Source of the DNA: Candidatus Gaiellasilicea maunaloa
Lineage (GTDB): Bacteria; Actinomycetota; Thermoleophilia; Gaiellales; Gaiellaceae
Reading direction: 5' to 3'
NCBI GenBank assembly: GCA_024330215.1
Contig: JANDLU010000003.1
Coordinates: 1 to 64,000 of the forward strand
DNA: 64,000 nucleotides
The first letter of the stretch is position 1. Each line of letters starts with the position of its first letter. Of the stretch, positions 1,843 to 58,691 are shown one piece after another. The notes beneath the pieces are model-generated. The model was not told the DNA's origin. It saw only the letters and a list, made by a program, of their open reading frames with translations, and ran no database searches. The position numbers were made by a program, and so were the translations under genes.

Positions 1843-1897
1843 GAGGGACAGACCCTCGGACACGTCTGTAACGGACATGTCGGAGGGTCTGTCCCTC
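1843..1897. repeat. Large palindrome between convergent genes (REP-like element or bidirectional terminator)
   Basis: GAGGGACAGACCCTC (1843-1857) and GAGGGTCTGTCCCTC (1883-1897) are perfect 15-bp inverted repeats; the inner part contains GGACACGTC/GGACATGTC. Confidence 0.8.
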
Positions 1898-20907: not shown

Positions 20908-20917
20908 CCCGTCCTCG

Positions 20918-20953
20918 CGGGACGTGTCCGGGGTCAAAGCCCGGACGTGTCCG
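20918..20953. repeat. Solitary REP-type palindrome (same family as the elements flanking the RAYT)
   Basis: CGGGACGTGTCCGGGGTCAAAGCCCGGACGTGTCCG; same core GACGTGTCCGGGGTCAAAGCCCGGAC as 48877-48915. Confidence 0.8.
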
Positions 20954-48864: not shown

Positions 48865-48876
48865 CGACGCGTCCGC

Positions 48877-48915
48877 TCGGGACGTGTCCGGGGTCAAAGC
48901 CCGGACACGTCCCGA
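48877..48915. repeat. REP palindrome, 3' side of RAYT
   Basis: TCGGGACGTGTCCGGG-GTCAAAG-CCCGGACACGTCCCGA: perfect 16-bp arms, 7-nt loop. Confidence 0.92.
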
Positions 48916-49436
48916 AGGGCCAGTACGGCCAAGTATTCTCGCCGCGCTCGATAGTCCGCCACGAATCGCCTCAGCCGTTCGTCCGGTGACGGCACGATCT
49001 TGCCGCGTCCGCCGTAACCGCCCCACGGCCAGTCCTCCGGCTCACGGCAGAGTCCGGCCTCAATCGGGTTGAGTGCCAGATACGCGCGAACGACGAGAAA
49101 GTGCTCCTCCGTCTCGACCAACCCTGAGTAATAGCGCCCTTGAACGAGAGCGCCCCGCCGGCCGTGCCTGGCATTGAAGGCTTGAACGTACCGAGCGTTC
49201 AGGTGCTGCATACCCCGCGCGATGTTCGGCTGGCGGGTGGTGACGAGCAGGTGGAAGTGATTGCTCAGCTGGCAGTAGTCGTGAACGTCCCAGCCGTAGC
49301 GGGCCACCGTTCGCACCAAGAGATGGTCGAAGGAGACTCGATCGAGCGGTCCGACGAACAAGGACTCCCGATCCGTGGCACGCTGGGTGACGTGGTAGAC
49401 CCCACCTGGGATCTGTAGACGTGGACGGCGAGGCAT
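48894..49436 (-). mobile_element. REP-associated tyrosine transposase (RAYT, IS200-like Y1_Tnp)
   Basis: MPRRPRLQIPGGVYHVTQRATDRESLF, CQLSNHFHLLV (HxH), GRYYSGLVETEEHFLVVRAYLALNPIEAGL. Confidence 0.93.
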
Positions 49437-49518
49437 GGGCCGACGGTAGGCGAGCGCCGGACAGAACGAAAGTGTCCGCGCGAAGTTGGCACAGAACTGT
49501 TGCACCGACGGCGGAGTT

Positions 49519-49550
49519 GGGACATGTCCGGGCTTTGACCCCGAACGTGG
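49519..49550. repeat. REP palindrome (inverted orientation, degenerate), 5' side of RAYT
   Basis: GGGACATGTCCGGGCTTTGACCCCGAACGTGG: same core as 48877-48915 with loop inverted (CTTTGAC). Confidence 0.85.
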
Positions 49551-49563
49551 CCGTTCGGGACGG

Positions 49564-58618: not shown

Positions 58619-58691
58619 TGGGCCGTGAAGGGATCGAACCTTCGACCTTGGGATTAAGAGTCCCCTGCTCTACCAGCTGAGCTAACGGCCC
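58619..58691 (-). tRNA. tRNA-Lys (anticodon CTT)
   Basis: GGGCCGTTAGCTCAGCTGGTAGAGCAGGGGACTCTTAATCCCAAGGTCGAAGGTTCGATCCTTCACGGCCCA cloverleaf. Confidence 0.96.

Follow-up and report, generated by a model that had tools for sequence, protein, structure and literature searches.

A TIRYT-like Y1 transposase with a probably cognate palindromic repeat family, one of four transposase-palindrome pairs in Candidatus Gaiellasilicea maunaloa

The names TIRYT and TIRtron were introduced by Di Nocera et al. (2013; PMC3733652), who gave GGGGWSAS as the motif of the TIRs and noted that some TIRs make up dispersed families. In the survey of Quentin et al. (2018; PMC6006769), most TIRYTs fall in subclass 2.1, the largest of the RAYT-like (class 2) subclasses, REP-like sequences were not found in that subclass, and the Actinobacteridae carried IS200-type genes of subclass 1.1 only. 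The term TIRYT is little used in the literature that we searched. Subclass 2.1 is said to be identical with group 1 in the RAYT classification of Bertels et al. (2017). The canonical REP-RAYT and REPIN systems of E. coli, Pseudomonas and Stenotrophomonas belong to RAYT groups 2 and 3, the members of which cut their cognate REPs as single strands, and the tag of the REP can help to choose the cut site (Corneloup et al. 2021; PMC8266576). Another group, the CGTC-tagged REPs, was reported without a transposase (Di Nocera et al. 2013; PMC3733652). No description of RAYTs or REPINs in Actinobacteria was found in the literature searched, subscription papers lying outside it.

The DNA analysed here, referred to as the window, is a stretch of 64,000 nt (positions 1 to 64,000 of contig JANDLU010000003.1, assembly GCA_024330215.1) from Candidatus Gaiellasilicea maunaloa. 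It includes a gene, RAYT-A, that encodes a Y1/HUH transposase of 180 aa (48894..49436, minus strand), is present in a single copy in the genome and is flanked by two copies of a palindrome, REP-A, in inverted orientation. Judged by its motifs and flanking repeats rather than by a tree with reference sequences, RAYT-A is a member of RAYT group 1/TnpAY1 subclass 2.1 (TIRYT). Of the motifs tabulated for subclass 2.1 (Table 1 in PMC6006769), it has NHFH, VQ at the FQ position, and YLALNP, and GGGGWSAS is matched exactly by the GTCAGAG variant of the repeat found in this genome and at 7/8 positions by the GTCAAAG form in the window. The C-terminal HTH-like extension of subclass 2.1 was not detected in RAYT-A, either by Pfam or in an AlphaFold model; because this extension is heterogeneous in subclass 2.1.2 (PMC6006769), we do not regard it as a strict criterion. 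Described TIRYTs have in common with this system a Y1 gene in single copy, the motifs NH[YF]H and YxxLNP, and flanking inverted repeats with GGGGWSAS at a set distance, and the repeats of some members are likewise dispersed and include dimers. The system described here differs in that the repeats are palindromic, number about 40 and occur in an actinobacterial lineage, in that one genome carries four transposase-repeat pairs, three of them with one frame, and in the shortness of RAYT-A, which has no detected C-terminal HTH.

Likeness to the canonical systems is also evident. In both, a domesticated Y1 transposase stands beside a multi-copy extragenic palindrome, inverted doublets are frequent and the fold is that of PDB entry 4er8. 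Here, however, a CGTCC tag is found 5 nt outside the arm, there is no GTAG foot, the protein motifs are others and the copies are fewer. A canonical GTAG REP of groups 2/3 was rejected, as the GT[AG]G hairpin foot is absent from the logo of 40 copies. The part of a preliminary description that recognised RAYT/REP logic, with a single-copy Y1 gene beside a REP-type palindrome, stands, the family being multi-copy, extragenic and paired; the subtype is TIRYT and not GTAG groups 2/3. With the CGTC-tagged REPs, REP-A shares CGTC(C) as its most conserved outer motif, but departs from the published families, which have stems of 8-9 bp (A/T pairs first), loops of 4-5 nt and a CCA tail (PMC3733652), in all three of these parts.

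RAYT-A and the palindromes on either side

The ATG at 49436 is the likely start of RAYT-A rather than the GTG at 49505, since relatives of the protein also begin with MPRxxR. The HUH motif is NHFH (H60 and H62) and the catalytic tyrosine, Y119, lies within YLALNP; in an alignment of 26 sequences H60, H62, Y119, N123 and P124 are invariant. Y1_Tnp is the sole Pfam match (6.7e-8). The NCBIfam model REP_Tyr_transpos (NF047646) gives 65 bits (E ~6e-18 to 8.8e-18) against a curated cut-off of 80 bits, and RAYT-A is related to REP_Tyr_transpos, yet below the equivalog threshold. The AlphaFold model has a mean pLDDT of 89, and its top match in the PDB is 4er8 (E 3.6e-10), the complex of E. coli TnpAREP with a REP hairpin, followed by the IS608 and ISDra2 transposases. 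Two short helices form the C-terminus of the model, the last of them at low confidence.

REP-A unit 1 (48870..48912, plus strand) is made up of the tag CGTCC (48870-48874), an arm GGACGTGTCC (48880-48889), the core GGGGTCAAAGCCC (48890-48902) and a second arm GGACACGTCC (48903-48912). The perfect palindrome reported in the preliminary description at 48877-48915 is present, the arms (48877-48892 and 48900-48915) being complementary over 16 bp around the loop GTCAAAG. Unit 2 (49520..49562, minus strand) lies inverted upstream of RAYT-A, with its core at 49542-49530 and its CGTCC tag at 49562-49558. The inverted relationship of the two copies was borne out, as 28 nt (49519-49546) match at 93%, but the upstream copy had been called partly decayed and this is not clearly so: its core is intact and it is the stem of the 48877 copy that is the outlier. 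A third unit, with the same tag, arms and core, is found at 20910..20952 (plus strand), and the midpoint of its core is 28 nt past the end of the gene upstream. The exact REP-A core occurs in the window at these three places (20930, 48890 and 49530). Exact GGACRYGTCC sequences were counted five times in the 64 kb, against 0.6 expected, and all five are within REP-A units. The sole Rfam match in the window is one tRNA gene (58619-58691, minus strand).

The TGA of the RAYT-A ORF (48896-48894, minus strand) is, as had been observed, inside the loop of the 3' palindrome copy, and the REP arm encodes the last residues of the protein, LRDVSGL. This arrangement looks incidental, because REP-A units adjoin the 3' ends of many genes and three other ORFs end ~40 nt or less from a REP-A unit. 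A stop codon in the loop was rejected as a general rule, as the ORFs of two further transposases of this genome, RAYT-B and RAYT-C, end outside their repeats.

A dispersed, extragenic palindrome family

Whether the palindrome recurs genome-wide, and in or outside genes, had been left to a search of the genome. With the REP-A core pattern GTCCGGGNTTTGACCCCGGAC and up to 3 mismatches, 36 distinct genomic places were found, and scans for whole units gave 39-40; the reversed control gave 0. REP-A is a genuine dispersed, multi-copy, extragenic palindrome family, and in this and in its inverted doublets it resembles the canonical REPs. The consensus of 40 aligned copies reads CGTCC, 5 nt, GGACRYGTCC, GGGGTCARAGCCC, GGACRYGTCC, ~5 nt, gGAC, with CGTCC at -20 to -16 in the logo. 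No paper containing the sequence GGGGTCAGACCCC was found in the literature searched.

The 16-bp stem, which the preliminary description treated as the element, is not a feature of the family. Continuous stems among the 40 copies are mostly 3-8 bp and reach 16 bp in one, the 48877 copy, and at the variable arm positions pairing in this genome was not above that in shuffles, i.e. there is no covariation. In a second genome of the genus, weak signals of arm pairing were seen at three positions (p 0.02-0.05, uncorrected). The 16-bp hairpin was accordingly rejected as the structure of the family. Since the extended arms show no covariation, the only part that could credibly fold in general, if any does, is the invariant core CCGGG-GTCARAG-CCCGG.

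Although 93% of the window is coding, 35 of the 39 units are outside called genes (p about 1e-36; the gene calls, from a simple caller that uses codon usage and was trained on the window, are approximate). Three of the remainder are within ~40 nt of an ORF end; the other is an in-frame unit in rsmB. The genes flanking the extragenic units are in tandem in 22 cases, convergent in 11 and divergent in 2. At about half of the sites (~13) two units form an inverted doublet, the cores being separated by 78-105 nt, and in most doublets the CGTCC tags point outward.

Four transposases, four palindromes

The genome contains four Y1 genes, RAYT-A to RAYT-D, which are mutually divergent and each present in single copy, and each has its own distinct palindrome on its 5' side. 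These are the core GGGGTCARAGCCC for RAYT-A, AGGGACAGTCCCT for RAYT-B, CCAGGGGCTGGCCCTGG for RAYT-C and a tandem 12-nt GGTGYCAGASAC for RAYT-D. All four palindromes are multi-copy, control patterns giving 0-3 matches, and palindromes outnumber transposases ~10:1. The frame GGACRYGTCC is common to palindromes A, B and C. A B-type doublet (AGGGACAGACCCT ... AGGGTCTGTCCCT) is present in the window at 1843..1897, with frame-like GGACRYGTC sequences separating its two cores; the cognate RAYT-B is elsewhere, on contig C164.

RAYT-D (C57:4818-5337) adjoins tandem arrays of GGTGYCAGASAC. There are ~20 such arrays, and because many stand at contig ends (C24, C26, C29, C69, C116, C121 and C169) they probably break the assembly. 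In the second genome of the genus a different Y1 gene occupies what appears to be the same radA-adjacent place.

Relatives of RAYT-A were found in 78 of 121 related genomes. A-like copies are commoner where such a relative is present, at least 3 of them occurring in 21 of the 78 RAYT-positive genomes and 2 of the 43 RAYT-negative ones (Fisher p = 0.0017, in a test that counts related genomes as independent). Within the family the association is weaker (p = 0.03 at >=3 copies and 0.10 at >=5). The pattern is not exclusive, as 8 A-like matches are present in G059, which is RAYT-negative and 66% complete. The consensus of the relatives includes NHYHLLVETP and LNPVRAGL. An inverted repeat around the gene exceeds shuffles in 59 of 86 RAYT-A relatives across phyla, mostly with GGGGTCAG; commonly it is GGGGTCAGGTCTTGCA in other phyla and a GGGGTCAGACCCC-like palindrome in the lineage of the window. 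In relatives from Proteobacteria, Nitrospira, Bipolaricaulota and other groups the inverted repeat GGGGTCAGGTCTTGCA is non-palindromic and often ~20-30 nt upstream. In a tree of 52 RAYTs, the support for which is weak, the GGGGTCAGGTC types are mostly together, with 11 changes of repeat type among 46 labelled rows, and the positions of A-D, on long branches, are unsure.

We consider it probable that RAYT-A is a TIRYT-type Y1 transposase, that REP-A is the non-autonomous palindromic element cognate to it, and that the two are one of four pairs of this type. From what the sequence establishes, namely the anatomy, copy number and extragenic placement of the units, their presence or absence at individual sites, and the intact catalytic residues and predicted fold of the transposase, we infer that RAYT-A may mobilise REP-A and give rise to its copies. 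The mechanism proposed, including cleavage, choice of strand and the roles of tag and frame, is modelled on the cutting of cognate single-stranded REPs by group 2/3 RAYTs (PMC8266576). Most likely, RAYT-A would recognise the tip of the hairpin (CCGGG-GTCAAAG-CCCGG) in one of the two strands while that strand is exposed as ssDNA, e.g. as the lagging strand. H60, H62 and Y119 would then cut near the hairpin, in reach of the CGTCC tag and the GGACRYGTCC frame, and the short unit, either one module of 38 nt or an inverted doublet, would be joined elsewhere, copies surviving mainly in short spacers after stop codons.

Comparison of two species

The second genome of the genus (G001) was compared with this one (G000). 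The flanks of REP-A sites match at 82-94% between the two and most sites are common to both; with most units at the same place in both species, movement would be rare. RAYT-B and RAYT-C are at orthologous places in G001, each with its own core alongside, and both are under purifying selection (w = 0.087 for RAYT-B and 0.18 for RAYT-C). For B and C, the pairing of one core with one transposase is kept in the two species, in the sequences compared. RAYT-A is syntenic in G001 and is a pseudogene there, with its N-terminal part missing and a frameshift. REP-A has 46 pattern matches in G001, which look about as well conserved as in G000, and the persistence of the family despite the broken gene suggests that it can persist without its transposase. 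The earlier description of the RAYT as maintaining the REPs is, thus, doubtful, and the case bears on whether REP populations depend on RAYTs for their upkeep.

Several sites differ between the species. A 38-nt A unit of G000 is missing from G001 (site ACCGTCCTCGCG/GGACGGTT), a 246-nt stretch with an A doublet is found between two genes in G001 where the flanks are joined directly in G000, and G001 has a 126-nt triple array that G000 lacks. In this comparison of two species without an outgroup, such differences could be insertions or deletions. In both species, in-frame palindromic units are also found within two housekeeping genes, rsmB and purK.

Where a core can be recognised in both species (~40 positions), its type agrees at about 36 and differs at 4. 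Because these core patterns also served to retrieve the G001 loci, sites left without any core are under-represented in the sample. The core is C in G000 and A in G001 in purK and at C115:11111 and C122:2254, and B in G000 and A in G001 at C171:9602. The purK unit reads ETRPGPAPGHVLEG in G000 and ETRPGFDPGHVLEG in G001, with frame, orientation, length and reading frame kept. As an addition to, and compatible with, the explanation favoured above, it is conceivable, though less likely than not, that at these positions RAYTs guide the replacement of hairpin tips within the common GGACRYGTCC frame, the transposases competing for docking sites. The four differing positions and the conservation of everything but the tip in purK are in its favour; however, a tandem C-A or B-A ancestor that lost different members in the two species would give the same pattern, mixed tandem arrays do occur, A is the G001 core at all four sites and RAYT-A is no longer intact in that genome, and two species were compared. 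That Y1 transposases with one docking frame, GGACRYGTCC, and differing in the tip that they read, swap tips at fixed sites is a rather doubtful proposition. If true, the frame would be a lasting address and the tip a cassette open to exchange, also within reading frames such as that of purK.

It is unlikely that REP-A units are instead elements maintained by the host at 3' ends (terminators, mRNA stabilisers or protein-binding sites), beside which the transposase landed, or from a site of which it descends, and which it no longer moves. Their position directly after stop codons, between convergent (11) and tandem (22) rather than divergent (2) genes, would be expected of such elements, as would the persistence of REP-A in G001 after RAYT-A broke and the large share of sites common to both species. 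Against this, the same genome has three more transposase-palindrome pairs with different cores, the units are single, double or triple with indels, some are in frame inside rsmB and purK, and the aligned copies show that the REP-A motif has no T-run.

The ends of IS200/IS605 elements are generally not inverted copies of one another. A conventional IS200/IS605 element with the palindromes as its ends and the scattered copies as solo ends left by decay, though it would account for the Y1 HUH fold shared with IS608 and ISDra2 and for inverted terminal repeats flanking RAYT-A, is very improbable, and membership was rejected as largely refuted by the motif YLALNP (YxxxNP, not YxxxQ) and the single-copy Y1 genes, to which are added the vertical retention of RAYT-B and RAYT-C under purifying selection, the about ten palindromes per transposase, and REP-A copies around RAYT-A that are inverted rather than same-strand hairpins.

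If RAYT-A and REP-A are a transposase and its cognate element, as we favour, subclass 2.1/group 1, reported without REPs, is accompanied here by several multi-copy palindrome families cognate to it, and this in a lineage previously noted for IS200-type genes only. With four pairs, three of them with a common frame, a specificity panel of four proteins and four cores is at hand for asking what a RAYT reads, and the sister genomes display the gain or loss of units and, apparently, their exchange.

Two B units of G000, at C164:9953 and C165:12026, each match a B doublet locus of G001 (C463:15310-15390) on one side only, a pattern that reflects either a rearrangement in one lineage with its breakpoint at the B units or an assembly join.
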